Assembly (NCBI RefSeq): GCF_026151205.1
Contig: NC_087083.1
Span: 1 to 64,000, forward strand
Direction: 5' to 3'
Source: Bolinopsis microptera
Taxonomy: Eukaryota; Ctenophora; Tentaculata; Lobata; Bolinopsidae
DNA: 64,000 nt
How positions within the stretch are numbered: position 1 is the first letter of the stretch; each line of letters opens with the position of its first letter. Below the pieces are notes generated by a model that was given only the letters and a program-made list of their open reading frames with translations, searched no databases and was not told the DNA's origin. This document shows, in pieces, positions 4,813-45,338 of this stretch. Made by a program: the position numbers and the translations under genes.

Positions 4813-6359
4813 GTAAGCTGTAATCACAGTAATAAACTGTAAGTTAATATTACTAATACCATGATTATATTAGATACTATATGCTTATAAGTATTTACAG
4901 TAACTTATATTACTGTAAGTAAAAAACTGGCTATTATATAATGAATTTGATTATTTCGGTCATTTCATTGACGGCGATGCTTATCACATTGCGTCCAAGA
5001 TGCTTCTGCTTACTGGTGAATTTTCCGAACCCGTAAAACGAAAGTGAACGGGTCTCATCACACTCAGTTATTTTTCAATTAAAATAAAAGACATTAACGC
5101 GCTTGCGACCAAAATTGGGCGACAAATTTCAGAGTAATGAGTTATTTCACACACAACGGGAGAGTTCAATCAAACGAAATTAGCCCTTTTTTAAGAGTTT
5201 ACCGGATTTAGGGACAAGTTGACCAATCACAATATGCCTTGTGATGTAGAACTATGATAACAACCACTATGCAGTAAGATGACTGATTTCTCCCCCTCGA
5301 TTAGCGAAACTAAAAATGTCTCGGACGTTTACTGTTCCCAGTCTTTAAATTATAAGTCATATACCGAGGTAGAGAAATAGATATTAACGCATGTTCTATT
5401 TTGAGAGGTAGCGAGAGCCGGAAAAAGTAAAAACATTTCGACATTTATCAATAGTTAAATAACAATACAGACACATACAAACATTGATAAAGCTATACAT
5501 ATCAAACCGTAATAATCCACATATAGAAACATAACCAGATGGGTAATATCTATCATTATATATCTGAGGCTGTCTGGAATTTGATGTAATAACGCGGCCA
5601 GTGTTCTCATCTCTCTCTCACTCTCTAGTATCAGCGATATAAATTATAAACTATATAAAAGTAGAACTTTAGCAGGTAACAAGGATAATATATAAAGGTA
5701 TAGTTCATTATCATGATGGTATTTTCAACAAAAACAAGCTAATTAATGCACTGTCTGGCCGGGTCTAACTCTATCTATAAAAAAGCTGCTATAATATTCC
5801 AGGAGGCGTGGGGTTAAGGAGTGATAATTCTTGAAGGTTCTCGTTTGTGAGTGTCGGTTTCAGAGAAATAATTTATAAATAATTGTATAATAAACTGCAT
5901 AACTGTTTAAAAGTGCAAACTACTGTGACGTTTATAAGTTCAACCGTAAAATCTTTATACGATTCTAAAACTGTGTTCGTGTCTCTCATTAAACGCGAAC
6001 CTAAAAAAGAGTAAAAGCTCAAATAAGACATGGGACGAAAATACGAACGGGAAATTTTAGGATCTCTCTCTATCTCTATCTCACCTATATATGTTTTGTT
6101 AGTATTACGGGATTGGGGGACATAGACATATTTCATATTATCATCTTCTAAAATGTATTAGAAGCTATCATTGGGCTAACTCCCAAAAAATGAAAGAAAA
6201 ACCCAAATACTAAGACACAGGAACCGATTACAACGCTGCGAAGCACACAGATTTACATCTCAAAGCTGTAACTTTACCTCAACATTATAGTCAATATTAA
6301 TTGTATAATGGTTATTATAATTTTTAAATGAATAAACCGATAAGATGGAGTTAACAATA
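4813..6359. other. AT-rich non-coding sequence
   Basis: I see no gene or element. Short tct/ctctct runs occur near 5610 and 6065. The sequence changes abruptly in composition at about 6360, where C nearly disappears from the plus strand. Confidence 0.4.
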
Positions 6360-7262
6360 TGATGATTATAATTTAGGTTGAATATTGGGATGATGGTTTG
6401 ATGATAATAGGGTGATGAGGTAGGTTTGGGGTTTTTTGGTAGGGATATTTATATTATATTATTTGGGTGGGGGGTTTGGTTTAGTGGGATTTTGGTAGGG
6501 ATATTTATTATAGTATTTGGGGGTGGGTGTTTATGATATGTGGACGTATAATTATATTATATGGTTATTGTGGTGTGAGGGAGTGGTTTGTGGTTTTTTG
6601 TTTTGGGGGGGAAGGAGTTTGGAATATATTATGGGGTGGATATGTGGGGTTATGGGGGATGAAGGGGTGTGTAATTTAGGTAGTTATTGGGTAAGGTGGT
6701 TAGGGGAGGGGTTATGTGTGTTATTGGGGATAGGGTATTGTTGGTTAGTGGAGGGTATTAGGGTAGGATGGGTATATAGGTGGGGTTAGGGTGTGGTATG
6801 TTAGGGTTATTAGATTGAGGGAGTTTTGTATTAAGTTTAATTGGTTTTTTAGGGATAGGAGAAGAGGATAGTGAGATGTATTAGAGGTAGATCTCATAAT
6901 GTAGTAATAGTATTGAGGGGAAGATAGGTAAATAGGATTAGTGGGGGTTGTTTGTGGGAGGTAAAGTGAGGTTGGTTTAGGGAGGTGGGGGATTTGGGGA
7001 GTGTATGGTATGTGTGTGGATAATGTATGATTAATTGTGAGGTGTATGTGGTATGGGGTAGTGGGTATAGTGAATAATAAGGGGGGTGTGGGGTGGGGAT
7101 GTAGGGGATGAGGGGGGGGTGGATATGTTATGGATTTTGAATGAGTGATGTGTTGGGTTAATTTGTGGGTTGTGTTTGTATTATTGGGTTTAGGTGAGTG
7201 GGTGAGTAAGAGAGAAGAAGAGAGAGAGAGAGAGAAGAGAGAGAAAGAAGAGAAGAGAGAAG

Positions 7263-7300
<38 letters not shown>

Positions 7301-8340
7301 ATAGAGAAGAGAATGAGAGAGAGAGAAGAGAGAAAGAGAAGAGAGAGATAGAATAGAGTAGATAGAGATACTATATATATAAATAGAGTTTTATAATTAA
7401 CGTGGTATTGTAGAGGAAGGTAAGATAAGACCCCGGGGAGTAGATGGTCAAAAATGGTGGAGTGGCTGGGTGTCAGAAGTCATCATAGATGGCGGATGGT
7501 TGAATCATGAGTATAGTGTTCAATGTAAAAATTTTGGTGAGCTGATGTAAAAAGGAAAGAGCAGGCTGGCGATCATGTTGGCTGCAGCAAGATTGAAATG
7601 TGATTAGTTTTTGGCTATTATTGGTCATGGAAGTATTGTGGGTGTTTTTGTTATAGAATGTGTTTTTGGTTGCTATAGAGTGAATGGGTTGGTGAGGGTG
7701 TTAGATGTGTGATCTAAGTATGGTTGGGTGTTGAGTGTGTGATTTGGGGGAAGGGTGGTGTAGGTATTTTGGTAAGACTATGGGGGGTTTAGTGGTTGTG
7801 GGTGTATTGGTGTATTGTGGTTGTGGGAGAAGTTTGTGGTTTTTTTTGTGGAGAGTTTTTTAAGAGGATAGAGGGAAGAAAAAGAGGAGAGATATTGGAT
7901 GGGGAAGAGGGGAGAAGGTGGGGTGATTGAGTAAATGAGGAGAGAAAGAGATGGGGGGGGAAGATGGAGAAAGGAGAGAGAGAATTAGAGGGAGTTGGAG
8001 AAAGAGGATGGGGAGAGAGTGATTGAGAATGAGGGAAAGGGAGGGGAGAGGTGAAAAGAGTTAGTATAGAAAGGGTGATTTAAAAGTGTGAGTAAAAGGG
8101 TGATTGAGGAAATAGGATAGGGGGGGTGTTTGGAGGTATTTGGTGTTATAAGATTTGGTGTTATGGTTAGTATAGGGAGTAAGGGTCTGAGGGTTAGGAA
8201 TAATGATTGTTAGGTAATTTAATGATTTGATTTTAAGTGAAGATGTGATAAAGAAGATGGTAAGTTGTGTTGTAATGGAAAATGGGATAGTAATTAGAAG
8301 TAGGTTTTATATAGGGGTAGTAGTAAAATAGAGTGGGGTC
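6360..8340. other. Strand-asymmetric tract almost devoid of C
   Basis: From about 6360 to 7370 and again 7620 to 8340 the plus strand consists almost only of A, G and T. Many 60-base lines contain no C (for example those starting 6421, 6601, 6661, 6721, 6961 and 7081). A GA/GAA simple repeat fills about 7208-7345. An island with ordinary C content lies at 7380-7620. Open frames within (6517-6789, 7145-7351) exist because the composition removes stops and are not genes. The cause is unknown: a biased simple-sequence region, a one-strand C-to-T process, or a consensus error. Confidence 0.8.
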
Positions 8341-8479
8341 TTTGTGTTAGTTAAAAGGTACTAGGATTTGGATGAGAATTATGTTTGTGCGAAGCGCGAT
8401 GGTGGTATGAGTAGTATGGTCGATAGAGAGTTAGGTTTAAGATGTATGGGAGCCAAAAATATCACCATGGACTGCATGG

Positions 8480-12787: not shown

Positions 12788-15660
12788 TTAGGAACCATCC
12801 CCTAGATCAGTGACAACATCAGAGTCTGGGATATTCTCTGAATTTTCACACAAGTTCTCTTTCTGCGATTGTGCCTCGTTAGCACACGTGATCTTAAGGC
12901 CATCCTCAGATTGATTAAGCTCAACCTCTGTGTTCTCAGTTTCAATCTCTTTTTCTGTTTCCCTTTCAGAAGTTTCCTCCGTTTCTTCCCCTCCGACTTT
13001 TTCTGACGATTCCGGTGTAGAGACAGGATTTATACCCTCAGCAGACTCCTCCCCTCTTATCTGCTCTGTTATCTGCTTTGTTATCTGCTTTGTTATCTGC
13101 TTTGTTATCAGCTCCTCCTTTACTTTCAGCTCTGGCAGCTCACTTGGTTCAGTGCTCTGTTCTGTTTCTTCAGAATGCTCGGTTTCAGCACTATCTTCTG
13201 TTTCTCCCGCCCCCTCTTGTTCATCTTCTTCTTCCTCCTCATCATACTCGAACTCGTCTTCGTGGTACGCTAACTCGTGCGAATACCTGAGGATAAATAG
13301 TTCAAATACCTGTTGATTATTTACCAAAATCGAGTAAACTAATTAAATACTTAATTAGATTAAGTGAATAACCAATTTAATTACCATTTAAACCAATAGT
13401 CTATGTTAAGAATATGATTGTAATTTCAAATAAATAAATAATTAAATAAAGTCCAATTTTATACAGCAATTTATCGATACATATTAGTGTCAGTTATTTA
13501 ACAACAATAGCAACAACTAAGGTGAACTATGATCAATAAGTCGTCAATGTATCTATTTACATAATATGTATTGAATAAATTAGCAGTTATTTGAATAAAT
13601 TCAATTTACATAAAATATCGATATTACATGATCTAGATTTAGACTACTTAAAAAAAGAAGTTAGCGACACATCTCGTATGCGAAATGAAAAATTATCTGT
13701 TATTTCCTATGCAATTAGTAATACTTGAGCTCAAGTTTGATTGTGTCCCGTGGATATACATGTGTACAATTTAGAATGTCATTAAAATGTTTAAACATGA
13801 CTTAGTCCAACATCAAATTGTACCAGAAATTAATCAGTACGATTGACTTCAAAAGGTGAGATTGTTGTATTAACAACATGTTAATCATATAATTAATTAA
13901 TTAATTAATAGCATACCTTTTTTCAATGGTCCAGAAGTGTTGCCCGCAAAACTGGCATCTGTATTCCTTACAGTTTGGTGTGTGTTGCCACAACTCTGAT
14001 TCTGTAGCAAATACCTAACGGAATATTTGAGTTATTTCAATGTTGAAATGTTGAAATGCAAGATATTTAGTGGTGAAATGGTGGTTAAAATTTCAAAAAC
14101 AGCCCAAAATTCAGATTGAAAACATCTTTGATATTTTAACATTTTAAACAACCGAAAAAGTAATATACCTATTAGTCTAATATACCTACTACCTAGTCTT
14201 AAACCAAAATTTCTGATAATTCTAAAATAACTCAGTCTGAGAAAACCAGTTTATTACTGAACCCCCCCCCCCCCCCCCCCCCTTACTACAGATAATAAGA
14301 ACCTACCATAGGACAGGTACTACAGAGGATAAGAACCTACCATAGGACAGGTACTACAGATAATAAGAACCTACCATAGGACAGGTACTACAGATAATAA
14401 GAACCTACCATAGGACAGGTACTACAGATAATAAGAACCTACCATAGGACAGGTACTACAGATAATAAGAACCTACCATAGGACAGGTACTACAGATAAT
14501 AAGAACCTACCATAGGACAGGTACTACAGATAATAAGAACCTACCATAGGACAGGTACTACAGATAATAAGAACCTACCATAGGACAGGTACTACAGATA
14601 ATAAGAACCTACCATAGGACAGGTACTACAGATAATAAGAACCTACCATAGGACAGGTACTACAGATAATAAGAACCTACCATAGGACAGGTACTACAGA
14701 TAATAAGAACCTACCATAGGACAGGTACTACAGATAATAAGAACCTACCATAGGACAGGTACTACAGATAATAAGAACCTACCATAGGACAGGTACTACA
14801 GATAATAAGAACCTACCATAGGACAGGTACTACAGATAATAAGAACCTACCATAGGACAGGTACTACAGATAATAAGAACCTACCATAGGACAGGTACTA
14901 CAGATAATAAGAACCTACCATAGGACAGGTACTACAGAGGATAAGAACCTACCATAGGACAGGTACTACAGATAATAAGAACCTACCATAGGACAGGTAC
15001 TACAGAGGATAGTGGGTCTCAAGAACTTCCTGTTTCTGTACTTCTTACTGATAAGGGCTTGGTCTGATTTGAGGTGAACACGTGATATGTGGTGCTTCAT
15101 TAGCGGTCTGTCGTCAGTTCGGAACATGCACTGTCCGTAGGAGCATCTGGGAGGGGGTTAGATTAATTAATAAGTTAATTTAATATTAAAGTAATAGCTT
15201 AAATAAGTTTTTAAATAGATAAATAAATAAAGTACTACCTGAAGCAAATAAGTAAATAAATAAAGTCAAAGTTTATATACAACTCTATATATCCGACGAG
15301 GTTTTTTAAAAAAAATGTACAAGAAGCTTTCTTGGGTGCAACGTATAATAATACACATTACAATGTTGTACATATTATAGTCGACTATAATTGGGGTATA
15401 TCCAGTACAGTAGTGTAGAATTACACGCTCCTAAAATAATTAAATTCCATTCACTCACTTGTAAATGGGGTTGAATCTGTAATCTGAATCATGGTGTATC
15501 AAATGATCAGACAGCTGAGCCGGACTATCAAAGTGGTACCCACAAATATTACATTTCACTATCTCTATCCCGCAGCTGACGCGCCGTTTCTTCGCGGGGT
15601 ACCGCTCGTCGTCGTAGTCCTGGGAGGGATCCTCGCGCGGTCCTACTCCTGTGGTGTATC
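12788..15660 (-). CDS. C2H2 zinc-finger protein, four 3' exons (partial gene)
   Basis: Four exons agree in phase: 15660..15459, 15146..14987, 14014..13917 and 13286..12788 (stop TAA at 12790-12788). The first encodes a basic, NLS-like YPAKKRRV and a finger KCNICGYHFDSPAQLSDHLI-HH. The second has CSYGQC...HHISRVH and ends TILCSTCPM. The third begins VFATESELWQHTPNC, completing a C-x2-C-x12-H-x4-C finger, then YRCQFCGQHFW. The fourth supplies YSHELAYH, completing the last finger across the intron, followed by a long acidic Glu/Ser/Thr-rich tail (DEFEYDEEEEEDEQEG and onward) with an ITKQ repeat. The protein is probably a nuclear DNA-binding factor with an acidic regulatory tail. Two introns or flanks are occupied by minisatellites that copy its splice sites. 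Upstream exons are not identified. Confidence 0.85.
14263..14282. repeat. Poly-C homopolymer
   Basis: About 20 consecutive C residues lie immediately before the first minisatellite unit, inside the intron between zinc-finger exons 14987-15146 and 13917-14014. Confidence 0.9.
14283..15007. repeat. 34-bp minisatellite containing a splice donor
   Basis: About 21 nearly identical 34-bp units (ctaccataggacaggtacta then cagataataagaac) run through the intron. On the minus strand each unit reads TGTAGTACCTGTCCTATG followed by GTAGGTTC. That is the last 18 bases of zinc-finger exon 15146..14987 plus its GT donor. The exon used for coding ends in the right-most unit. Every other unit carries the same exon end and donor. 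Copy identity is very high (only gat/gag changes), so expansion is recent or homogenised. Confidence 0.9.
15147..15458 (-). other. Intron of the zinc-finger gene
   Basis: This AT-rich intron separates exons 15660..15459 (donor AA|GTGAGT) and 15146..14987 (acceptor CCCTCCCAG). Nothing else is recognised in it. Confidence 0.6.
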
Positions 15661-17760
15661 CTGTTATATTCCTAACCCTTCATCATATATCTGATGAGCG
15701 CTTAATTAACGATTCTTCTCAAAAAATGAGCTACTCATTATCCTGTTATATTTCATATCTTTAGAAGATAAGCGCTTAATTAACGATTCTGCTCAAAAAA
15801 TGAGCTACTCATTATCCTGTTATATTTCATATCTTTAGAAGATAAGCGCTTAATTAACAATTCTTCTCAAAAAATGAGCTACTCATTATCCTGTTATATT
15901 TCATATCTTTAGAAAATAAGCGCTTAATTAACGATTCTGCTTAAAAAATGAGCTACTCATTATCCTGTTATATTTCATATCTTTAGAAGATAAGCGCTTA
16001 ATTAACGATTCTGCTCAAAAAATGAGCTACTCATTATCCTGTTATATTTCATATCTTTAGAAAATGAGCGCTTAATTAACGATTCTGCTCAAAAAATGAG
16101 CTACTCATTATCCTGTTATATTTCATATCTTTAGAAGATAAGCGCTTAATTAACGATTCTGCTAAAAAAATGAGCTACTCATTATCCTGTTATATTTCAT
16201 ATCTTTAGAAGATAAGCGCTTAATTAACGATTCTTCTCAAAAAATGAGCTACTCATTATCCTGTTATATTTCATATCTTTAGAAGATAAGCGCTTAATTA
16301 ACGATTCTGCTTAAAAAATGAGCTACTCATTATCCTGTTATATTTCATATCTTTAGAAGATAAGCGCTTAATTAACGATTCTTCTCAAAAAATGAGCTAC
16401 TCATTATCCTGTTATATTTCATATCTTTAGAAGATAAGCGCTTAATTAACAATTCTTCTCAAAAAATGAGCTACTCATTATCCTGTTATATTTCATATCT
16501 TTAGAAGATAAGCGCTTAATTAACAATTCTTCTCAAAAAATGAGCTACTCATTATCCTGTTATATTTCATATCTTTAGAAGATAAGCGCTTAATTAACGA
16601 TTCTCTCAAAAAATGAGCTACTCATTATCCTGTTATATTTCATATCTTTAGAAGATAAGCGCTTAATTAACAATTCTGCTCAAAAAATGAGCTACTCATT
16701 ATCCTGTTATATTTCATATCTTTAGAAGATAAGCGCTTAATTAACAATTCTGCTCAAAAAATGAGCTACTCATTATCCTGTTATATTTCATATCTTTAGA
16801 AGATAAGCGCTTAATTAACGATTCTGCTCAAAAAATGAGCTACTCATTATCCTGTTATATTTCATATCTTTAGAAAATAAGCGCTTAATTAACGATTCTG
16901 CTAAAAAATGAGCTACTCATTATCCTGTTATATTTCATATCTTTAGAAAATAAGCGCTTAATTAACGATTCTGCTCAAAAAATGAGCTACTCATTATCCT
17001 GTTATATTTCATACTTAGAAATAAGCGCTTAATTAACGATTCTGCTTAAAAAATGAGCTACTCCTTATCCCTTGTTATATTTCATATCTTTAGAAGATAA
17101 GCGCTTAATTAACAATTCTGCTCTAAAAATGAGCTACTCATTATCCTGTTATATTTCATATCTTTAGAAGATAAGCGCTTAATTAACGATTCTGCTCAAA
17201 AAATGAGCTACTCATTATCCTGTTATATTTCATATCTTTAGAAATAAGCGCTTAATTAACGATTCTGCTTAAAAAATGAGCTACTCATTATCACTGTTAT
17301 ATTTGCATATCTTTAGAAAATACGCGCTTAATTAACGATTCTGCTCAAAAAATGAGCTACTCATTATCCTGTTATATTTCATATCTTTAGAAAATAAGCG
17401 CTTAATGAAACGATTCTGCTTAAAAAATGAGCTACGCATTTCCTGTTATATTTCATTCTTTATGAAAATAATGTCGCTTAATAACGATTCGCGCAAAACT
17501 GAGCTTCTCTCCTCTCTCTCTCTCTCATTAGATTTTCATATCTTTAGAAGATATGCGCTTAATTATAAGATTCTGCGCAAAAATTGAGCTACTCATTAGC
17601 TTGTTATAGGGTCATATCTTTAGATGATAAGCGATTAATTTAAGATATGATAAAGAAAATGTGAGAGTAAGCGATTTCCTGGTTATAGGCAATATCTTTA
17701 GAAAGAATAAGCGCGTAATTATAAGGATTATGCGAAAAATAGGACGTTAGCAATTTAGAA
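15657..17760. repeat. 74-bp minisatellite containing a splice acceptor
   Basis: About 27 units of 74 bp (tgagctactcattatcctgt, tatatttcatatctttagaa, gataagcgcttaattaacga, ttctgctcaaaaaa) begin exactly at the 5' end of zinc-finger exon 15660..15459. On the minus strand each unit ends GAAATATAACAG|GATA, which is the acceptor and first bases of that exon. Units are clean from 15700 to about 16900, then become progressively indel-ridden, and at about 17760 they dissolve into C-depleted sequence. The array lies in the upstream intron of the zinc-finger gene. Confidence 0.9.
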
Positions 17761-19320
17761 GTTGAAATTTAATATTTTTGATAATGAACGAGTAATTATA
17801 GTTTAGCTTAATTTGAAGATCGATTGGGGAGCGCAGTGAATAGAGAGAGTAGCGAGAGAGAGAGTTTTTTGTTGAAGATTTCTCTCTAGTTTATGAGAAT
17901 AATGTAATAAGATTTGTAGAAGGTTATAGTGGAGTGATTGAGAAATGTAGAGAGTATGGTTAGGTTGTAGGATATTATGATGGGATGCTTTATGGAGGTT
18001 TGATATTAGGTGTGTAATTAGTAAGTGTAATTTTTTGGTGTGAGAGTAGTTAAGGGTGGTGAATAGAGTGGATGGTTGTATATAGTTGATGTGGGTAGGT
18101 TGGATTAGGTGATATTTGGGTGAATTAATAAGGAATGTTGTCTGGACATAATACGGGTGCATCTATATCGCGCGATCGAGTAGAGAGCTAGAGCGCAGAT
18201 CTGCGCTAGATGAGTTCTATATCTCATCTCATATACATGAGTATTATAATGGGGTATTATTATGGGCTGTTGTGTGGTGTCTTGGCTGTTTTCTGATTTT
18301 GATAATTTATAGGGAAATTTATATACAAGTCACAGGTTTAGTTAATTGTGTGGTGGATTTGTGTGGATGATAAAATTTTACATGTTATACTCATCTATAC
18401 TCTATATCTACTATCTACAGGGGTTTTGATTATGTAGGATAGGGGTTTTATAGGGTATTCTGATTATGTAAGATATTTGGGGGGTTTGTTTTTTGTTTTC
18501 ATATAGGATAAGTTTTGTGAGTTATGGGTTTTTGTGGTGTGTTATTAAAGTTTGTGGAGTGTTAGGTGGGGTGTGTATAATTGTGGTTTGTGTGAGTGTT
18601 TTTTTAGTGTAGAATTATTTGTTATTATATGTATGTTTATTTATGTTGGTTTTTTAGTGGTTTTAAGGTGTTTTAATTATATTTATTAAGGGGATAAATG
18701 ATTTTAAGAATTAAAGAGAGTAGAGAGAGAGAGAGCAGTTTTTTATGTTGTTGGTGGTGGGGGGATAGTTGTAGTTAGGGTTGTGAGGGTAGATTGGGGT
18801 TGGGGAATGTTGTTGAGGAATGGAGGTGGGGGGGGTCATGGGGTGTGGGTATGATTGGGTGCGGTTGGTGTGTATTAGGATAATGTGTGGTGTGGGAAAT
18901 AAATGTTTAGGGATGGGGTAGTTGGGTTTGAGGGGTTTTTTGTTTGATGGTGGTAATTTATGATAGTAGGTTGGGGTATAAGTTTAGGATGTGGGTTTGG
19001 TAGTTATTATGGGTTTTATGGGTGTAGGGGGTAATAGGGTGTATTAGTGGGAAAGTTGGATGGGGGGTTTAAATTTAATTTATGTTAGAATTATTTAATG
19101 GGTTTTTTTGTTGTGATATTAAAGTATTTGTGGGGTTAAGGGGCTTGGATAAGTGTGATATACTGTTTATTATGTAGAATGATAATGATTTAGGTTAAGG
19201 TGAGAGGTCTCAATTAGAATGGTGTTTGGTGATCGTATAGGGTTTATATGTATGAGATTTATTGTTTATTAATATAATAGGGCATAGTTAGTATGATAAT
19301 GAATCTGAATGATTTTTTGA
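17760..19320. other. Second C-depleted tract
   Basis: Plus-strand C is rare from about 17760 and nearly absent at 18460-19130, with G and T rich words like those at 6360-8340. GA-repeat runs occur at 17836-17866 and 18715-18738. A short normal island lies at about 18140-18240. The 119-codon minus frame at 17803-18162 has a peculiar composition (His, Tyr, Leu, Asn rich) that follows from the base bias, so it is not called as a gene. Confidence 0.7.
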
Positions 19321-19929
19321 AACCGGAATTTCAAGATAATATTAAATGAAGAACATTTTTATAATTGTATTTAGAGATAATGATAGTTTTTAATGAAGGT
19401 GTTTAATTACGGACAGTATAATTACTTAATTGAGCAGTTTAGGTGTAGGACGGAATATCGTATGTTAAAGTTGGTAAGATCTCTAAATGTAAATAAACTT
19501 CATGAAGAGATGGCACTTGCAATTAGCACTTAACTGCTTCACGCTAGCCATCAGCCAGCGGGCAAAAAGCGACTCCTCCGCAATTAATATCAAATTGAAT
19601 TTGATAACTAGCAGCCATATTATAATCTCACGGACTTAAGACTATACTTCAAGTGTGCCATATTATAAGCTCACGACTTAATACTATGCTTCTAAGTCAA
19701 TAGGATTTCTTATCGAGACTTTTAAGTGGTTCCTTATTCATATCATCCAGCCATACCTACCCTACCCACAATAATCCAGACATACCAGACATACCGGCCG
19801 CTTCCACAAAATATGTCAATCCTTAACCAATCCAGCACGATAATACCACGTGATTGACAACCTATTTATACCTGGACAATGGACATATGGCACATGTGAT
19901 ATGAGAAAGGGAGAGATTCTACTCTGAGG
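19321..19929. repeat. Non-coding with a tandem duplication of about 60 bp
   Basis: A segment near 19613-19655 (gccatattataatctcacgg) is repeated at about 19657-19700 (gccatattataagctcacga), both followed by a related acttaa..ctatgctt sequence. Nothing else is recognised. Confidence 0.5.
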
Positions 19930-19964
19930 CCACTGCGTTGTAGCCACATGTCCCGTCTGACAAA

Positions 19965-20250
19965 CAACATCAACAACTGCATCGATAACTGCAGGGGCTG
20001 TTTCGACAACTGCGTCGACAACTGCAGGAGCTGTTCGACAACTGCATCGACAACTGCAGGGCAGCATCAACAACTGCATCGATAACTGGTTTCGGCTGCA
20101 TCAACAATTGCATGGACTGCATCGACAACGGCAGAGCTGCTTCGACAACTGCATCAACAACTGCAGGGGCTGCTTCAAACAACTGCATCGACAACTGCAG
20201 GGCAGCATCGACAACTGCATCGATAACTGGTTCGCTGCATCGACAACGGC
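19965..20250. repeat. 33-bp minisatellite with Ala/Val-rich minus-strand translation
   Basis: Units of about 33 bp built from gcatcgacaactgcag fill this stretch. On the minus strand they encode an 11-residue unit close to PAVVDAVVEAA, with frame breaks between units. It may be the remnant of a repeat-protein gene together with 20660-21000, or a plain satellite whose length is a multiple of three. Confidence 0.6.
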
Positions 20251-20659
20251 ATCTGAAAAGTTGGTTTGTGTATCTGATTACATTGCTTCATTCTTAAATA
20301 GCCATCTCCTGAAGCTGAGATGCTCATGATTTAGTTTAAGGAAACGCAAATTATAAGGACAAAATCTTAATACAAAACCAATCAAAAGGCTTGAATAAAC
20401 TGAGCAAATGAAATAATGATCTACAGTTCCTGCTTGGGCATGCACATCTACAACAATCTTTAGATTTGACCTGAAAACTGTCGCTCAGAATTAATAGAAT
20501 AAGAATCAAATTTGCACAGCAATAAACACAAAGACATCATCCAATATTTTCGAAAAGAAGAACAAGAAAACTATAGTCAATCACAACAAATAAATAAAAG
20601 CAATTTCAGGATTTATCACTCAGGATATCACTCAGAACAAGTGACAATAGGTTGCTTTA
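20251..20659. other. Non-coding sequence between two repeat-coding stretches
   Basis: Nothing is recognised here. If the Ala/Val-rich frames on either side belong to one minus-strand gene, this would be an intron, but no clear splice pair was found. Confidence 0.3.
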
Positions 20660-21000
20660 TTCACTTAGAGTTGTCAGAGTAGAATTCATCTCCACAGCTA
20701 CAGCAGGAACGTCAGCGATGACCAAGGTGTCAGTAGCCTTCACATGTGCATCAGCGATCGCCCAAGCTACTGCAGTCATCGGGGAAGCTTCAACAGGGAT
20801 CACAGATGCTGCATCAACTGTTGGAACTTCAGCGATGGCAGGCGCTTTGATAGTGAGTAAATGTGCATCAGCAATCTTCCATGCTTCTGCAGTGTTCGAT
20901 GGCGCTTCAGTGATGGCAGCGCATCAAGAGGGAGCAAAAGCTCTTCAGCAATCTTTAAAGCTTCTGCAGTGTTCGGTGGCGCTTCTGAAACTGTTCTAAC
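20660..21000 (-). pseudogene. Possible Ala-rich repeat protein fragment
   Basis: On the minus strand a frame ending in a stop near 20663 reads through units that resemble one another. One is EAPSNTAEAWKIADAHLL followed by TIKAPAIAEVPTVDAASVI. The next is EASPMTAVAWAIADAHVKAT followed by DTLVIADVPAVAVE. A further unit upstream (EAPPNTAEALKIAEELLL) is in another frame because of a one-base shift near 20920. The protein-level similarity (EAP..TA.A..IADAH) between units of about 38 residues suggests a once-coding amphipathic repeat. The opposite-strand frame at 20652-20999 is its shadow. No family is recognised. Confidence 0.4.
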
Positions 21001-21780
21001 TCAATACATTGCTTCAGTTTTCAAAGTTAAATTCTTGATACACCGAGGAAATTTTGCAATAAAAAATATTCCAACAAAAAATTTAGCAATTATCGATGCA
21101 ACGGATGCAATTCTAAATTTTCGCAAAGTTAATAAATTGTTATTTTAAATTGGTACAAAAAACCCATGCATATGAGTGGGTAATTTATAAATTCAATCAT
21201 CTTTATCTAAAAGCAAAAACATGCAAGATGTACATCAAAAGAGGTATCTTTAAAGTGGAAAACAAGAATGCTGAAAAAGTGCATCAAGAGCAAATTACAC
21301 AACAATGGCAATGCAATCACGACATGGTACATGTTAACAAGTTATTACAATAATGATCGATATCACGGATGTAAACAGACACAATACAGTTTACAACATG
21401 TAGTTAACAGCAAGAACTTCTGTGTAGAAATACGTAAAGTTAAACTATTCAAGGTAATTCTTCTCATTAAAAATACTACAACTAACATACAATCCGAATG
21501 TTATAATATAATGTAGATCTGTACAATCCAAAGCGTGAGCGGACTAGCAGACATTATATATTGCATTATTATACGTTCAATTAGTACATTTTATACGTCA
21601 AAACAAGTATATGTACAAAGAACCAAGTTTTTGCTTTTTGAAATGATACAATTTAAGTGCGAATCTGCAATCCCATTTTTGTCCGTAAGTGTTGGACATT
21701 AAACTTAACCAATTCACATTTAAACAAAAAAACCCTGACATACCCTAGGCCTGGATCAACGAATAGGGCACTGATGCTGA
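21001..21780. other. AT-rich non-coding sequence
   Basis: Short overlapping frames at 21150-21516 have Lys/Asn-rich composition typical of AT-rich DNA and no motif. No element is recognised. Confidence 0.4.
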
Positions 21781-21782
21781 GC

Positions 21783-21955
21783 GCACGTGCAGGGGCTAGC
21801 CGCACACGTGCTGTGCGCGGCTCTGTTCATGGAGAGTTTTCAGAGCTGGGGCACAGCACGTGCAATTAAATACCAGCACGAGCAGAGCCGCGCACAGCAC
21901 GTGCAGCACATGCCGGGCGCAGCACAGCATCTTTGTGCACGTGCATACCTTGACA
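21783..21955. repeat. E-box-rich inverted repeat (foldback)
   Basis: Two perfect 21-bp inverted arms lie at 21805-21825 and 21883-21903 (CACGTGCTGTGCGCGGCTCT plus G, and its complement), separated by 57 bp. CACGTG or GCACGTGC occurs about six times between 21783 and 21945. The stretch is GC-rich in AT-rich surroundings. It could be a MITE end-to-end structure or a palindromic regulatory cluster. Frames on both strands (21787-21969, 21796-22119) follow from the inverted repeat. Confidence 0.7.
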
Positions 21956-22515
21956 AGGTTACAAGTTGAATGTTCGTTGTTCACAAACGATTTTGGAGGA
22001 GAATCTGAAAATTCAATCACTGAATAATCAGTTTTAAACGATAATACGAAGTTCCATTTAGTGCCAAAATGATCGACATAAAAAATAATAGTGCAGGGGC
22101 GTTTATGTGAAGCTCTCACGAAGATTTGCGTTATGATTTAAGGGCACTGGTGTAGGGAACAAAGGTTCATGCAATATGCTCGGACACTGTCTACCTGAAG
22201 AAAGAGTGAATTTTGCCAGATAATTAAAGGTAAGCTAGATATTATGTTGTGATATCACCTGTTTAAACATACGATCGTAATTTTAAATGGGAATTTTATG
22301 TAATAAAATTACATGTTATAAAAAAAATTACATAAATTATGAACATAGATAGCTAGCTAAGATGATAAAAAGTAGCAGAGTTTTAAACATTTAAAAAGTA
22401 TCACTTAACCAAAATCACAACATTGAATATAAATCAATTAACTTGTGAACTTTACGATCAGTTTCAGGTGCCGGATCTTTTGAGTTAAAACACTAGTTTT
22501 AAGTTAAACGTCACA

Positions 22516-22645
22516 TCTGAACGGACACGTGATGCATCACGTGATATATCACGTGATGAAAACTAACATGTGATGTAAACTAACACGTGATACAAACTAA
22601 CACGTGATGTAGTGATGTAAACTAACACGTGATGTAAACTAACCG
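22516..22645. repeat. Tandem TCACGTGA-type repeat
   Basis: A short unit close to taaactaacacgtgatg is repeated about seven times. It follows two back-to-back palindromes (atcacgtgat). CACGTG E-boxes are thus spaced about 17 bp apart. No gene start is recognised next to it. Confidence 0.7.
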
Positions 22646-23159
22646 ACGAAGGCAGCAGCAGGTGTAGGAGGAGTGTGCCATGACTGGTCGGCTGCTTTAC
22701 GTGCGAACATCAGGTTACTACCTCTTTTAATGTTACCAGAGTTCCACAGAGCTGTGCAGAAGGTTTATTTTTAAATATTATTTTATTTAAAATATTATTT
22801 TATTTGAAAAATAACAATAAAACATAATTTGAGCGTTCATTATTGTATATTAGTAGAAGCTTGTTCTTTTAAGTCGATACATTTTTTGTCAAAAAAAATT
22901 GAATAGGGTACAGTGTGATAAATAAAAATTATTTCTTTTTGTTTGAGATATGAAGTTGACGTACCCTTGATACAAGCGAACCATCCCTCTGAGTACCCTG
23001 TACAGCAGGGAGATCAGATACAGCTACCCGCATTTGTTAACCGTCATTATCGTTGTAGTCAACTGAAATAACAGCATTTAAAAACTGAACGTATTGCTGC
23101 TAACACTGACTTATTTCAAAAAACGTAATGTGAAATTAGGTGCTAAACAACAGAAATAC
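22646..23159. other. Non-coding, possibly the 5' region of the CR1-like LINE
   Basis: AT-rich sequence with nothing recognised, directly upstream of the LINE endonuclease remnant that starts near 23160. Confidence 0.35.
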
Positions 23160-26846: not shown

Positions 26847-29518
26847 CTAAAACCATCCATTTTCTCGACTATCCTCTTGAATGAGAACCTCATTAGCTTT
26901 ACCAGATACCTCACCCAATAAATGTGGATTAATAACCCGCGTAGAACCTAACAACTTCCTCACTGAGATATTATGAATAATATTAAATAACTTTATAAAC
27001 GTGAATTATCCAATTAATATTGATTTGAAAACTGTTTCACGATAATAATGCAAACGGTGCCGGTGATGTCCCTTTGATAGCAGAGAAACCTTACAATCTT
27101 AACTAATCCCCTGCCAAGCAAAGTAATTTGCTCCAAATTTTAAAATACTCAACTCAACAACCAAGTTGAGGTAAAACCGGTTTATAACTAAATAATTAAT
27201 TAATTAAATAACAAATTAACTGCATTCCTCAACGCACCGTGAAGATAGTAGCAATAGCACCAGGGACAGTACTGTACTTATCTCCTCTCCCCATTAAGTG
27301 AAACTATCATCCGTTTAGTAACAACTAGCAGAGGATGCGAGGTTATCACTGCTAAGCTTGTGCTGCGCACTGCCTCCTAACTAGTTTAGGTTTAACTGTT
27401 AAAAAACCATTTTTGTAGATACCATGACAGTAGAGTATCTGCTGTCCTACATTGTCAAAGTTTGTTATAGTTTTTACTGGTTACTAATCTGACCCGATAA
27501 ATATTTATTGGGATAAAGTGCTGTATCAACTTACTTTTTTTCTTATTGTATTTATTTATCTGAACAAAGCTGTCCACGCTTCAGCTTGCAGAGGGGATGT
27601 TATAATGACGTGCTTCTTTCATTTCTTAAATGATAGATAGAAAAAATCATAATTAATCGCAATCTAGTAAGAGCACCTTAGTTCCCAAAAATTTGTGTGC
27701 CATTATATTGAGCACAATTATTTGAGCCCGAAAAATTTGGGCAGAAAATTTGAACTCATTTGGGCGACCGAAAATTTGGGCACAAATTCTTCGAAAAATG
27801 ACCGATTTCCACTAAAATTTCAGTTAGATATTTGCCTTATTCATTTATTGCCAGTCATTTGCTTTCAATTTTAAGCATGTTAGTGTAGTCCTGAGTTGTG
27901 TTTCACATTAATGAAATTTACGATCTCCCATAACTACTCAAAATACAGGTGATATGGCACAGTACTAAATGATAGATATACAATAGTGATATTTAGTCTC
28001 TCAATCAAATAGTTTAGTCTATTTACACTCAGCATATCTTATCATACCCCTTTCACATACAATTATCATTATGACGCCTCACCCAGATGGTCGAGAAGGT
28101 TTGAAAAGAAAATTAGAAGGTTTACATCATTATCTATCAAACTAAGCGGCACATACGCTTAGCTTTGGGGGAAAGCAAAGGTGTACATATTGTGTGTAGC
28201 GAACTACTTTAAAAGTGTAACCGGACCAAAGGTCAAGTCTAATTTTAATTAACCAGCTAATATGACCCATCATCTACAGCCCCTGGACTTATCTATCAAT
28301 GGACTGGCTAAGAATTCCATGCGCAATAAGTAAGAAGATTGGTACGCGAAAAACATAGTGTGTCAGCTCAATGGAGGGAGTTTTCATCAGACAGTGTGAA
28401 AATTGATACCCCGCTTGACAGTGATCCGTGAAGTACACGCTCGTTGGATCAACGAACTTTTTTGTTATTTAAAAGGGAGGCCAGATGAGCATAAGGAAGG
28501 CGTTGGAGAAGTCGGGTATAACTGATGCTTGTAGATCAGACTTTACGGTGGATGATAATCCATTTGCAGATCTTGTTTAAATCTCTAGCTATCCGTACCT
28601 TCGCTCTAGCCATTGTTTTATTAGTAGCTGTTACTGTTCCAGTTATTTCTATTCATTTAAAAATATAAGCCTTTTTCTTGGTGAAGCCATGAAGGACAGA
28701 TTAGAAAACTAAAATTTCAAATATTATTTCACTTGGATATGAAGAAAAAGCCATCCTTTCTATAGATTTCAGGTCCACAGGCCAAATGCCAAAAGTTTGG
28801 TTATAGCAAAAAATTTAGCAGACGGAAAAGATGTAGCAATTAATTTGGTCTGCAAAAAATTTGGGCGAGAGGCCCGCTCAAATTTTTTGTCGCCCAAATT
28901 TTTGGAAATTAAGGTACTATAAGAACTGATCAATTAAACAATTAACTAATGAACTTTAAATGAGTTAATGAGTTTAACCTCAGAAGCAATCTGTTCAGGA
29001 GGACACTTGCTAGTAGAAACTGGAAGTGCCGCTAACACCTCACTCCTGACAGAGTTTGTAATGAAGACCCCTCCTAGTCGGGTGTCAGACCTCGGTAGAG
29101 GACTAGCGGGATCCTTCTTTGTCTGCCTGGAGATTAGCTAATTAGTTAAAGAGTTAGTTTTTAATTAGTTAATTAGAGGGGATTACACTATTTACTAGTG
29201 GCAGAAAGATATAACGTTATCTCATATATTAAATTTCTTCCCATTCAAATGTCTCCCTTTAAAAATTGTTTGCAAAAAAGGTCGGGTTTTCTAAAATTGT
29301 CCTCATTGGTACCAAATTTCCTCGCAGTTGCCGTGTTTTCTGGATGTAGAAAGGTTATTTAATATGATTAATTTATAATTGCAAACGTGGAAAATTGTTT
29401 ATAAATAATAAACTCACCAATATTTCATGTATTTGAAGATTGTTAGGATAGTAATAACCCCAGAGAAGAAGAACATGCTCGGTTGCCTGAACGTCGGAGG
29501 AAGTGGCTCGTAACCAAC
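26847..29518 (-). CDS. Unrecognised small membrane protein, 3' exons (partial gene)
   Basis: Exons 29518..29418 (acceptor ATTCCAG, donor TG|GTGAGT) and 29126..28979 (acceptor TCTCCAG) join in phase. They encode VGYEPLPPTFRQPS, a hydrophobic segment MFFFSGVITILTIF followed by KYMKYWQTKKDPAS (one membrane span with a basic cytosolic flank), then DTRLGGVFITNSV and KCPPEQIASE. A terminal exon 26962..26847 (acceptor ATATCTCAG) encodes RKLLGSTRVINPHLLGEVSG and ends SRENGWF-stop. A 34-base exon, 27271..27238 (donor G|GTGCGT, YCPWCYCYYLH), would connect them in phase, but it is the weakest piece and another exon could replace it. A pogo-like transposon occupies the intron at 27672-28915. First exons are not identified. 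I do not recognise the family. Confidence 0.55.
27272..27671. other. Intronic sequence
   Basis: AT-rich intron of the minus-strand membrane-protein gene. Nothing else is recognised. Confidence 0.4.
27672..28915 (+). mobile_element. Pogo-like DNA transposon, degenerate
   Basis: The ends are imperfect inverted copies. The left is gcaccttagttcccaaaaat. The right, read inward, is gtaccttaatttccaaaaat. They are bordered by taaga-like sequence that may hide a TA duplication. Plus-strand translation at 28265-28580 resembles the C-terminal part of a pogo/Tigger-type DDE transposase: LQPLDLSINGLAKNSMRNK, then QLNGGSFHQT, LTVIREVHARWINELFCYLK and FTVDDNPFADLV. Stops and frameshifts are present and the N-terminal DNA-binding and first catalytic parts are not seen. 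Subterminal aaatttgggc repeats lie near both ends. Confidence 0.65.
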
Positions 29519-38559: not shown

Positions 38560-38784
38560 ACCTAACCCAAACCCAACCCTAAAAACCCCTTTAACCTAAC
38601 CTAACCCTAACCCTAACCCTAACCCTAACCCTAACCCTAACCCTAACCCTAACCCTAACCCTAACCCTAACCCTAACCCTAACCCTAACCCTAACCCTAA
38701 CCCTAACCCTAACCCTAACCCTAACCCTAACCCTAACCCTAACCCTAACCCTAACCCTAACCCTAACCCTAACCCTAACAACCC
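38560..38784. repeat. Interstitial telomeric repeat (CCCTAA)n
   Basis: About 30 perfect ccctaa hexamers (38604-38780) are preceded by variants (cctaacccaaacccaaccct, aacctaacct). The vertebrate/cnidarian-type telomere repeat TTAGGG is thus on the minus strand, the orientation of a left chromosome end for the DNA to its right. It directly abuts the truncated retroelement copy. The Leu-Gly repeat frame on minus is a by-product. Confidence 0.95.
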
Positions 38785-39973: not shown

Positions 39974-40456
39974 GGGTGGTGGGCACTGGATCATAGCAAA
40001 TATGACACAAACTACTTTTTATCCACCTCAAACAATGCAACAATTCAATTAAACAAATAATCAATTTATTGGTCCCAGCCTGGGACCATAGAAATACCAA
40101 ACATCCAGTAGATATGAACACAAGTCATGCTAAAACAGTGAGCAGTGCTATTTTTGATCCTATCAGGGGTAAAAGAATTGTGTCAGTTGGCTATGACGAT
40201 AAAGTGTGCATACTAGACTTTAGCAATAAGGCTAAATTATCAGAAGTTAAGAAATTCTCTCATTGTAATAACACAGGTTGCTGGCTCACCAAGTTCCAAG
40301 CGAGATGGCATCCATCAAGTGATGAACTGTTTGTTATTGGCTCCGTGGCTCAGCCGCGTCGTGTTGAAATCTATAATATGCAAGGAAAAATGGAGTGCAC
40401 TCTCTCCAGTGAGAATATTGGCTCAATTCAGTCGCTTGTACAGTTTCATCATTAAC
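39974..40456 (+). pseudogene. Truncated 3' duplicate of WDR76
   Basis: From gtgggcactggatcatagca onward this is nearly identical to 44387-44896 of the intact WDR76 gene, beginning in mid-ORF. Differences are a 30-base insertion near 40047, two 6-base deletions (near 40278 and 40473), and a TCA-to-TAA change that ends the frame at 40455. It lacks the N-terminal half and the first WD repeats. The homology continues into the 3' flank and past the Tc1/mariner insertion to about 43214, so it is part of a segmental duplication rather than a retrocopy. Confidence 0.9.
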
Positions 40457-40838
40457 AGAACGCTCTTGTTTGTGGTAATGGGAGCGGATATTGTTATATT
40501 TTTCATAACGATTGATATTCTCATTTTTTGGAGGGCATTTCCTAAAAGTCATTTGCTACGATTTTATAAGTCGCATTGACATTACAGAGCACACAAAATA
40601 AACCAGAGCTCGTGTTATAACTTATTATAACTTGATAACAAACTAATTAATTTCTTCAATTTTAACGGTTTTTGTTTGTTTTGTTCAATGACCCTGCTAA
40701 TGTGAAGGTTTTTAACTCTCTTTTTAAACTTTAAATTCATCTTTTGATCAAATAAAAGATCGAAGGTATTTTATTAACTTATAAATTTTTACCAGATTCT
40801 ATCATGTTTTTCAATTCCTGACCCTTTTATGTAATATA

Positions 40839-42942: not shown

Positions 42943-43399
42943 TTAAAAAGTGATTAAATAACAAACATGTGAACTACCCCTGGCCCTGATTGAGCATGAA
43001 AAATGGCTGATCTACAGTATAAGTAGAGCTGAGGTATTAACTTATTATCCCAACTATTTATATTGAACCGCAGGTTCATTTAAAATAAATAATGAGAAAT
43101 ATGACGATGAAGAGTTTTAAATAAGAGTGATATTGTAGAAATTCATAGAAAACAGCCACATTTGGTGCCCTTTCAGAGATTCTTCCTCTTGATGATTGGA
43201 AGCTTCCCAGAGCCTAGAATTTAGAATTTGAGTTATTTTTTGTTTTATTGTTTTTGGTTTCGATATCAATAGTAATTATGATCATTGATTATGAGTTTAT
43301 TATCAAAAAAATATAAAAACAGTCGCCAGTCAATAAGATTATGTGAAACTAATATTATTATAAATTATTATAAATTCTAATCCTGGATGCTTCACAGGA

Positions 43400-44896
43400 A
43401 TGGCCACGAAGAAAGATGTTCAGTTCAGAAAAGATCTGGAGGATCTGGGAGTTGACGCCGATATCATGGATGATATTATGGACATACATAACATAAATCC
43501 AAATCTTGTGCCCTATGAATGCAAAAGGCAGTATAACATCAAGAAAAACGAAGAGAAGCTACGATCTCTAAATCTTATGGATATTAAACTTGAAATGAGA
43601 TCCAAAACCTCTCAATCACAGAAACGGAAGACTTGGACACCAAAGCCAAAATCCACAACTCCCCTGGAACCAGCCAGGAAATCTGCAAGAATTGCTGGAA
43701 TTAAGCCAATTCACTATAATACCTCGGAGTACCTGGTACCTCTGCGCGTGCGGTTTCAAAGATCTGAAAGACCGAGGGCCCCATCTAGGCCTAAGCTTGC
43801 ATTTAACGATATTGTTGACATCAAATCAGACTCCGCTGGTCCAATCTTAGATGTGCTAAAGAAAACAGTAGACAAAGATCTCCTCGTAACCCCTCCAAAA
43901 CTCAAATCTGAAGACTCCACTATTTTAGAAGACATCAGAAATCTACACCTCGACCAAAGTCATATGGCAAAATTGTGTAAAGTTCGGCTATCCTCAATGG
44001 CAATTCATCCTGGACATAAACTGATAGTGGCAGGTGGCAGTAAACAAGGTGAGGTAGGTTTGTTTGTGCCTGGAGAAAAGAAGGTTACAATTCGACTAGA
44101 ACCTCACACTAACTTAGTTGGAGGTTGCCAGTTTTCTTGGAACAAGTTATTTACATCCTCGTATGATTCTTCCATTCGGATGTTCGATTTTGAAACACTA
44201 CAGTACGACCAGCTGTATTCAGACCCAGAGTTGTGCTTCAGGTCGTTAAATGTTTATAACGAAAATGAGGTGTTGGTTGCTGGAACAAATGGACAGGTTT
44301 TTAAGGTGGACGTGAGAGAGAACATTAAGGTTTGTGAGTATCCTGCTAAACCGGACTTCAGTAAATATGGGTCATTGTGGGCACTGGATCATAGCAAATA
44401 TGACACAAACTACTTTTTATCCACCTCAAACAATGCAACAATTGCAGCCTGGGACCATAGAAATACCAAACATCCAGTAGATATGAACACAAGTCATGCT
44501 AAAACAGTGAGCAGTGCTATTTTTGATCCTATCAGGGGTAAAAGAATTGTGTCAGTTGGCTATGACGATAAAGTGTGCATACTAGACTTTAGCGATAAGG
44601 CTAAATTATCAGAAGTTAAGAAATTCTCTCATTGTAATAACACAGGTCGCTGGAGCTGGCTCACCAAGTTCCAAGCGAGATGGCATCCATCAAGTGATGA
44701 ACTGTTTGTTATTGGCTCCGTGGCTCAGCCGCGTCGTGTTGAAATCTATAATATGCAAGGAAAAATGGAGTGCACTCTCTCCAGTGAGAATATTGGCTCA
44801 ATTCAGTCGCTTGTACAGTTTCATCATTCACAGAACGCTCTTGTTTGTGGTACTGGTAATGGGAGCGGATATTGTTATATTTTTCATAACGATTGA
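43400..44896 (+). CDS. WDR76: WD repeat-containing protein 76, intact and intronless
   Basis: A 498-codon frame runs from ATG (after a splice-acceptor-like ttcacag|ga) to TGA. The first 75 residues are a conserved basic N-terminal module (FRKDLEDLGVDADIMDDIMD, PNLVPYECKRQYNI). A KSARIAGIKPIHYN-type R-S-x-R-I motif follows at about residues 93-110. From about residue 195 come WD40 blades (SSMAIHPGHKLIVAGGS, WALDHSKYDTNYFLSTSNN, AAWDHRNTKHPV, FDPIRGKRIVSVGYDDKVCI, ARWHPSSDELFVIGS) ending GSGYCYIFHND. The family (yeast CMR1) acts in the nucleus in DNA-damage and chromatin contexts and with CUL4-DDB1. The coding region has no introns, unlike TAF4 nearby, so it may be an old retrogene or have lost its introns. 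Duplicated fragments lie on both sides. Confidence 0.93.
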   Translation: MATKKDVQFRKDLEDLGVDADIMDDIMDIHNINPNLVPYECKRQYNIKKNEEKLRSLNLMDIKLEMRSKTSQSQKRKTWTPKPKSTTPLEPARKSARIAGIKPIHYNTSEYLVPLRVRFQRSERPRAPSRPKLAFNDIVDIKSDSAGPILDVLKKTVDKDLLVTPPKLKSEDSTILEDIRNLHLDQSHMAKLCKVRLSSMAIHPGHKLIVAGGSKQGEVGLFVPGEKKVTIRLEPHTNLVGGCQFSWNKLFTSSYDSSIRMFDFETLQYDQLYSDPELCFRSLNVYNENEVLVAGTNGQVFKVDVRENIKVCEYPAKPDFSKYGSLWALDHSKYDTNYFLSTSNNATIAAWDHRNTKHPVDMNTSHAKTVSSAIFDPIRGKRIVSVGYDDKVCILDFSDKAKLSEVKKFSHCNNTGRWSWLTKFQARWHPSSDELFVIGSVAQPRRVEIYNMQGKMECTLSSENIGSIQSLVQFHHSQNALVCGTGNGSGYCYIFHND

Positions 44897-45338
44897 TATT
44901 CTCAATTTTGGAGGGCATTTCCTGAAAGTCATTTGCTACGATTTTATAAGTCGCATTGACATTACAGAGCACACAAAATAAACCAGAGCTCGTGTTATAA
45001 CTTATTATAACTTGGGGTTTTTAGCTCTCTTTTTTAACTTTAAATTCATCTTTTGATCAAATAAAAGATCGAAGGTATTTTATTAACTTATAAATTTTTA
45101 CCAGATTCTATCATGTTTTTCAATTCCAGACCCTTTTATGTAATATATTCTATCATATTCTGTAATCTGTATGTTAGTTAAATTAACTACATGACAAATT
45201 TTTAATTTATTTCAATTGTAACCGTTTCGATACTCAATGCCAGTTGCAGAGTTTTAATACAATTTTGATAATTGATTTTAGTAGCATCAGGACTATTTAT
45301 TCCCCTAACACCATGCCAAGAGGTCGTTCACATATTAT

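Follow-up and report, generated by a model that had tools for sequence, protein, structure and literature searches.

The human IFI6 gene (6-16, G1P3) reportedly carries a minisatellite with multiple splice donors, described by Turri, Cuin and Porter (1995). The unit is said to be 12 nt long and in frame, the extra donors are said to lengthen the protein, and the use of more than one donor has reportedly been shown. In human segmental duplications, variable internal tandem repeats at exon-intron boundaries were described by De Grassi and Ciccarelli (2009; PMC2812944), who reported 27 intron modifications with transcript support, discussed as novel introns. In exon 1 of ER-alpha, two comparable donors lie 33 nt apart and the intron-proximal one is favoured, by a mechanism that the authors describe as not known; they call these donors a good natural model for intron-proximal preference (PMC6002489).

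The locus described here was analysed in a window of 64,000 nt, positions 1-64000 of the 15.2-Mb contig C12 (NC_087083.1) of Bolinopsis microptera, forward strand; the assembly searched has 232 contigs and 264,652,675 bp in all. As in an IFI6-type minisatellite, the array found in this window overlaps both the end of an exon, exon 3 of a zinc-finger gene, and the donor of that exon.

Gene structure and the inverted copy

The window contains a five-exon C2H2 zinc-finger gene model of 341 codons on the minus strand, in which exon 1 and the acceptor of exon 2 are predicted.

22644-22710, minus strand: candidate exon 1, 67 nt, with ATG and MFARKAADQSWHTPPTPAAAFV, phase 1, donor GTTAGT
15459-15660, minus strand: exon 2, 202 nt with the predicted acceptor AACAG/GATAC, donor GTGAGT
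14987-15146, minus strand: exon 3, 160 nt, ending ...CSTCPM at donor 1, ATG/GTAGGT, first intron base 14986
13917-14014, minus strand: exon 4, 98 nt, completing a C2HC finger, acceptor CGTTAG, donor AAG/GTATGC
12788-13286, minus strand: exon 5, 499 nt, completing the last finger, with an acidic tail and the stop TAA

Window positions 1-34361 have an inverted counterpart at C12:318747-355902, with a second copy of the gene at C12:336 kb. The five-exon frame is open in both, with 341 codons in the window copy and 345 in the second. The two coding sequences differ at 7 of 1026 nt (five synonymous changes and two that are not) and by one in-frame 12-nt indel, and exons 2 and 3 are identical. Exon 5 includes an in-frame 12-bp repeat (13057-13113, TKQI/TEQI) that differs by one unit between the gene copies. 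Over the duplicate as a whole, the aligned blocks are 83-98% identical, with large, kb-sized indels between them. Above 7 kb, eight blocks of at least 600 columns are 90-98% identical; near the contig start the matches are at 83% (6337-2170), 93% (2018-727) and 91% (1-600). Since the contig start falls within the duplicated block and C12:1-264000 contains no N, two accounts of the second copy are possible: it is a paralogue in inverted orientation, or it is the other haplotype, put at a scaffold end. The published Bolinopsis microptera assembly was made with wtdbg, gap closing and haplotig removal (PMC10232365); if this is the same assembly, a misplaced haplotype and an imprecise unit count are both possible. 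The same paper names Iso-Seq libraries among the data for its study species.

The sequence-only reading had placed an exon at 15146..14987 and held that the next exon completes a C2HC finger in phase. Both were borne out, the first at 160 nt and the second at 14014..13917. Joining exon 3 to exon 4 yields CSTC-x12-H-TPNC (CX2CX12HX4C) with the frame open, joining exon 4 to exon 5 yields a CX2CX12HX4H finger, and the frame continues to the stop codon in both gene copies. Because the C2HC finger is restored, a second finger is restored at the following junction and the frame is open in both copies, the exon 3/4 junction is very likely real. The predicted protein matched Pfam zf-C2H2_4 (E 1.6e-7, 31.8 bits, cut-off 27) and zf-C2H2 (E 4.4e-6, 27.3 bits, cut-off 25.2), while zf-C2H2_3rep reached 27.2 bits, under its cut-off of 30.8; for the two families above cut-off the best stretch is the exon-2 finger, not the finger at the exon 3/4 junction. 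The zinc-finger proteins 7mc1 and 6e93 of the PDB align over the exon 3/4 junction with no gap there (whole-sequence E 4.8e-5 and 4.2e-4), in alignments that span both junctions, but the junction stretch alone gave an i-E of about 0.4 against PDB zinc fingers (0.42 for the match with E 4.8e-5) and is weak by itself. Motif spacing together with the open frame is therefore what chiefly supports the junction.

The candidate exon 1 was first sighted by eye, and the rule for it was written afterwards: it asks for phase 1, a start at ATG, 15 codons or more, a donor from a set of 11 hexamers, and G in position -1. By this rule 22710-22644 is the sole candidate in 15700-23000, and it is identical in the second copy; a further candidate at 26893 is not identical in the other gene copy. 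Exon 2 has an alternative in-frame acceptor 12 nt further inside.

The possibility was considered that the gene model is wrong, either because exon 3 ends elsewhere or because the gene is a decaying duplicate, in which case the donors discussed below would be meaningless. The locus does form part of an inverted duplicate at the end of a contig, a place prone to assembly errors, and exon 1 is a candidate only. However, two successive junctions restore canonical fingers, the 341-codon frame is open in both copies, and synonymous changes between the copies (5) outnumber the others (2). An erroneous model is judged very improbable.

A minisatellite across the end of exon 3

Exon 3 ends inside a tandem array.

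14284-15006, minus strand: 34-bp minisatellite; TRF gives period 34, 21.3 copies and 98% matches
14262-14282, minus strand: run of 21 G in the gene sense (21 C on the plus strand), adjoining the last partial unit of the array

These limits agree with the minisatellite of about 21 units that the sequence-only reading had put at 14283..15007. That reading also took each unit to comprise the exon end and a GTAGGT donor; both are present in every unit, but the exon stretch is 20 bases, not 18. By eye, the unit consists of 25 nt of the exon 3 end (20 identical), the 8 nt of intron start GTAGGTTC and one T. The last 20 bases of exon 3 have the same letters as the unit, and two bases among the 25 exon-derived ones are changed in most array units. 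In a unit-by-unit comparison the consensus was matched exactly by 19 of 21 full units; the remaining two, rows 14318 and 14930, have two base differences, and both bear exon 3's own ATCCTCTG version.

When a 30-base piece of the unit was searched against the 264.65-Mb assembly with up to 2 mismatches, 28 matches were obtained, 21 in this array and 7 in the inverted duplicate. The reversed control pattern gave 0 matches, so that chance is not an issue. A mobile or dispersed repeat was rejected as the identity of the array: among the best candidates scored, the 34-bp unit was found only at the locus and its duplicate. At C8:716852, the third match to the 34-bp unit, CCTATGGTAGGT was not seen by eye, and the repeat there is of the GTACTACAG type.

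The second gene copy has 8 donors, compared with 21 in the window, and the fifth of them is GTAAGT. The array flank of the second copy has no counterpart of the 21-G run. One assembly thus holds two array lengths, whether the second copy is an inverted paralogue or a misplaced haplotype, and in either case the unit number varies between two related copies while the protein frame is kept.

Exon 3 ends CAC/TATCCTCTGTAGTACCTGTCCTATG; in the second copy the last donor continues GTAGGTTC/AGTGATAAGC, and the downstream flank reads GTAGGTTC/AGTG. An origin can be proposed in which tandem duplication first copied a 33-34 bp segment that takes in the last bases of exon 3 together with the donor; expansion and homogenisation as a minisatellite would then have followed, giving 21 units here and 8 in the second copy. 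Since the exon part of the unit encodes the CSTC knuckle of the finger, the simplest direction would be from exon end to repeat, not from repeat to exon. No array-free paralogue that could serve as an outgroup was found among the 8 matches listed (28 candidates scored); six of these were the two copies themselves, and the remaining two were weak (C2, E 0.002; C10, E 0.046).

Reading frames behind the row of donors

Each unit of the array presents a splice donor, and the unit following donor 1 contains a stop codon.

14306-14986, minus strand: 21 identical donors GTAGGTTC, first intron bases 14986, 14952, ... 14306, spacing 34
14966-14968, minus strand: TAG, in frame, within the first unit retained (coordinates counted along the sequence), met by all donors but donor 1

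The junction CCTATG/GTAGGTTC occurs 21 times on the minus strand in exact 34-nt steps from 14986 to 14306. Every unit reads ATG/GTAGGT at this point, and the 21 donors are the same from -20 to +8, so that the "row of equivalent donors" of the sequence-only reading is fair wording at this level. Exons 2 onward were joined with each donor in turn. Donor 1 alone gives the full frame. With donors 2-21 (20/20) the frame ends ...ILCSTCPMVGSYYL and then a stop, the truncated end being ...CSTCPMVGSYYL. The first retained unit reads GTA GGT TCT TAT TAT CTG TAG, that is VGSYYL with TAG as codon 7. As the frame before the extra unit is fixed and the TAG is reached at codon 7, all later donors truncate at one place; this holds even for 3, 6 and further multiples of retained units, which would bring the frame back. 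The frame shift ascribed to the later donors is real in that 34 is not a multiple of 3, but it is secondary, the in-frame TAG coming first for 20/20 later donors. In the second copy the later donors (7/7) also stop after VGSYYL.

The stop lies upstream of the last exon junction by 110-756 nt in the window copy and by 110-314 nt in the second copy. A stop that far upstream of the last exon junction usually marks a transcript for decay. With the stop at least 110 nt upstream, the truncated transcripts would be of the type usually destroyed by nonsense-mediated decay.

The reading that we consider most likely, with about even confidence, is that the array causes a leak of non-productive splicing. 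Donor 1 spliced to the acceptor at 14014 would make the full zinc-finger protein, as the open frame and the restored fingers suggest. Any other donor would, by the computed joins, retain 1-20 units and meet the shared stop after VGSYYL, and the truncated transcripts would probably be destroyed by nonsense-mediated decay. The gene would tolerate such a leak because both exon definition and the co-transcriptional order of events work in favour of the first donor, and some output would be lost, in an amount depending on the unit number.

Donor strength and RNA structure

Duplex energies were computed for pairing with the U1 5' end. The array donor gave -8.8 kcal/mol and the GTAAGT donor of the second copy -9.1, whereas the other donors of the gene gave -6.9 (exon 2), -5.7 (exon 4) and -5.4 kcal/mol (candidate exon 1). 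The array donor thus pairs better than the gene's other donors, and the array sites are not weak. A donor of comparable strength (-8.8 or -9.1 kcal/mol) is present in every unit, 21/21 in the window and 8/8 in the second copy, where the GTAAGT fifth donor should compete with donor 1.

Carried over to this locus, the intron-proximal preference seen in ER-alpha would direct splicing to the last donors of the array and away from the productive donor 1. Because the full frame is obtained only from donor 1, the most distal of the 21, this speaks against any simple preference for that donor. The same study cites protection by U1 of 23 nt upstream, in the exon, and 12 nt downstream, in the intron (PMC6002489).

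A hairpin hiding all donors but the first was considered and rejected, the predicted accessibility being 0.20-0.21 at each of the 20 donors scored, out of 21. Nor is the array unusually structured, since the fold of 190 nt of it is just slightly more stable than that of shuffled sequences (z -1.51; 13/200 shuffles as good).

Two further reiterated splice sites

Two more predicted splice sites of the gene lie at repeats.

15693-17640, minus strand: 74-bp minisatellite, 26.2 copies, ending next to exon 2, with acceptor-like sites
22567-22643, minus strand: 17-bp repeat, 5 copies of GTTAGTTT, the first being the candidate exon-1 donor

On the predicted exon 1 and exon-2 acceptor, from which the stop outcomes at both sites follow, 22/22 of the ATAACAG/G sites in the window other than exon 2's own (23 in all) lead to a stop, 21 of them after codon 23 and one after codon 25. 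The second copy has three such sites including that of exon 2, and 2/3 lead to a stop. The four later GTTAGTTT sites give a stop after codon 23 in both gene copies. The 74-bp unit was rejected as a dispersed repeat, since among the best candidates scored it was found only at the locus and its duplicate.

Tandem arrays with a period of at least 10 and at least 3 copies make up 14% of the window; for C12:1-264000 the share is 15%. With 15% coverage and random placement, one or more of 8 splice sites would fall within an array with probability 0.73, and three or more with probability 0.11, under a model that ignores selection against arrays in exons and counts two predicted sites. An enrichment of arrays at the splice sites of this gene was rejected as not significant (P 0.11 for at least 3/8). 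With arrays over 15% of C12:1-264000, the overlap of an array with a splice site is by itself unremarkable.

These figures bear on a second explanation, which we regard as a real contender, nearly as likely as the leak: splicing would practically always start from donor 1, since definition of the 160-nt exon comes first, and the array would be fast-evolving intron sequence with no effect on output. The genome is rich in minisatellites, with arrays at 14-15% and at least one of eight sites expected within one (P 0.73), and the frame of the gene is intact with 21 units and with 8. However, the donors in the array are strong sites with the same sequence as donor 1, and the published competition between comparable donors favours the intron-proximal site (PMC6002489).

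A regulated extension was also considered, in which splicing goes by default to the later donors, the full-length form depends on a factor switching on donor 1, and the array acts as a poison switch or a copy-number rheostat. A single stop serves all 20 later donors, the 34-nt spacing is near the reported U1 protection (23 nt of exon and 12 nt of intron; PMC6002489), the unit number differs between two intact copies, and two more predicted splice sites lie in arrays whose other sites also give stops. Nevertheless, stops are expected when non-coding sequence is read in one frame, and it would take more than two copies to demonstrate selection on unit number; we therefore think such regulation unlikely. 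In its widest form, which is similarly doubtful, the unit number (21 or 8) would set protein output at three reiterated sites. Identical donors packed at about one U1 footprint would compete, and loss to a later donor would lead to the shared stop and a destroyed transcript. The same would apply to the reiterated acceptor (22 additional copies) and to the exon-1 donor (4), with one productive member per site.

Other features of the window and the duplicate

No Rfam RNA elements at gathering scores and no tRNAs (ARAGORN) were found in the 64,000-nt window. The plus strand is almost without C in 6401-8400 and 17601-19400; C counts are 0 in 6601-6800, 7001-7200 and 7801-8000 and 21 in 7401-7600, and the GC skew for 6001-8000 is 0.775. 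In the second copy, the stretch between the matches flanking the first C-poor block (C12:347603-349905) has ordinary composition save for one CT-rich 200-nt piece, and the counterpart stretch of the second block is shorter. The C-poor blocks may be an odd sequence class, the result of strand-biased mutation or an assembly artefact. Converted second-copy sequence was rejected for 6351-8450, where collapsing C and T gave no long match (one of 20 bases). The same comparison for 17551-19450 gave matches of 68-85% identity and up to 227 columns.

At 38595-38779 there is an interstitial telomere-like TTAGGG repeat, (CCTAAC)31. By eye, 40006-40576 and 43364-44978 encode nearly the same protein piece, the second of which matches WD-repeat families; part of a WD-repeat gene seems to be duplicated here.

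About 60 bp outside the duplicate edge at 318747 lies a dispersed repeat with a second one beyond it, with at least 42 matches including itself (best 40 of 721 candidates scored). The intron between exons 4 and 5 of the second gene copy holds about 3.9 kb found only there (C12:338110-341983). A stretch of 484 columns in this insert is 95.7% identical to C12:105985-106468, which makes at least this portion of it a repeated sequence.

Comparison with known systems

The two gene copies are natural genes with 21 and 8 near-equal donors and a clear read-out, in that, by the computed joins, the most distal donor alone gives the full protein. They could show, in a natural setting, how one splice site is selected from among identical ones, and they indicate that a fast-changing repeat can occupy a splice site that the gene depends on without disrupting the protein frame.

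IFI6 has a 12-nt, in-frame unit, whereas here the unit is 34 nt and the extra units do not keep the reading frame (20/20 later, putative donors lead to a stop).

Like the repeats of PMC2812944, the array has units of about 30 bp, lies at an exon-intron boundary and differs in number between recent gene duplicates, here the two related copies. Unlike in those cases, discussed as novel introns, the acceptor needed by the frame is outside the array. With ER-alpha exon 1 the locus shares equivalent donors at nearly the same spacing (33 and 34 nt). However, ER-alpha has two donors, of which the intron-proximal one is normally used, while there are 21 here and the frame needs the most distal (PMC6002489). 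As in intron 4 of DOK7, whether the product is full-length or truncated depends on which of several neighbouring donors is taken; the DOK7 donors, unlike those of the array, are two, 11 nt apart and of unequal strength, and do not form a tandem array (PMC5585400). CeRep25B of C. elegans is likewise an intronic minisatellite near alternatively spliced exons with a suspected influence on splicing, but it is a dispersed family with regulatory motifs, whereas the units here are copies of one gene's own donor (PMC4039745). Intron gain by tandem duplication of an exon piece also ties duplication to splice signals (PMC4974935). In contrast to that process, the frame here needs no new intron, its acceptor at 14014 lying outside the array.

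No published description of this locus was recognised among the matches listed in the literature searched, which was available in part. Given the precedents of IFI6 and of PMC2812944, the kind is already known, a minisatellite that supplies multiple splice donors, and the locus described here would be a further member of it with a frame-breaking unit.
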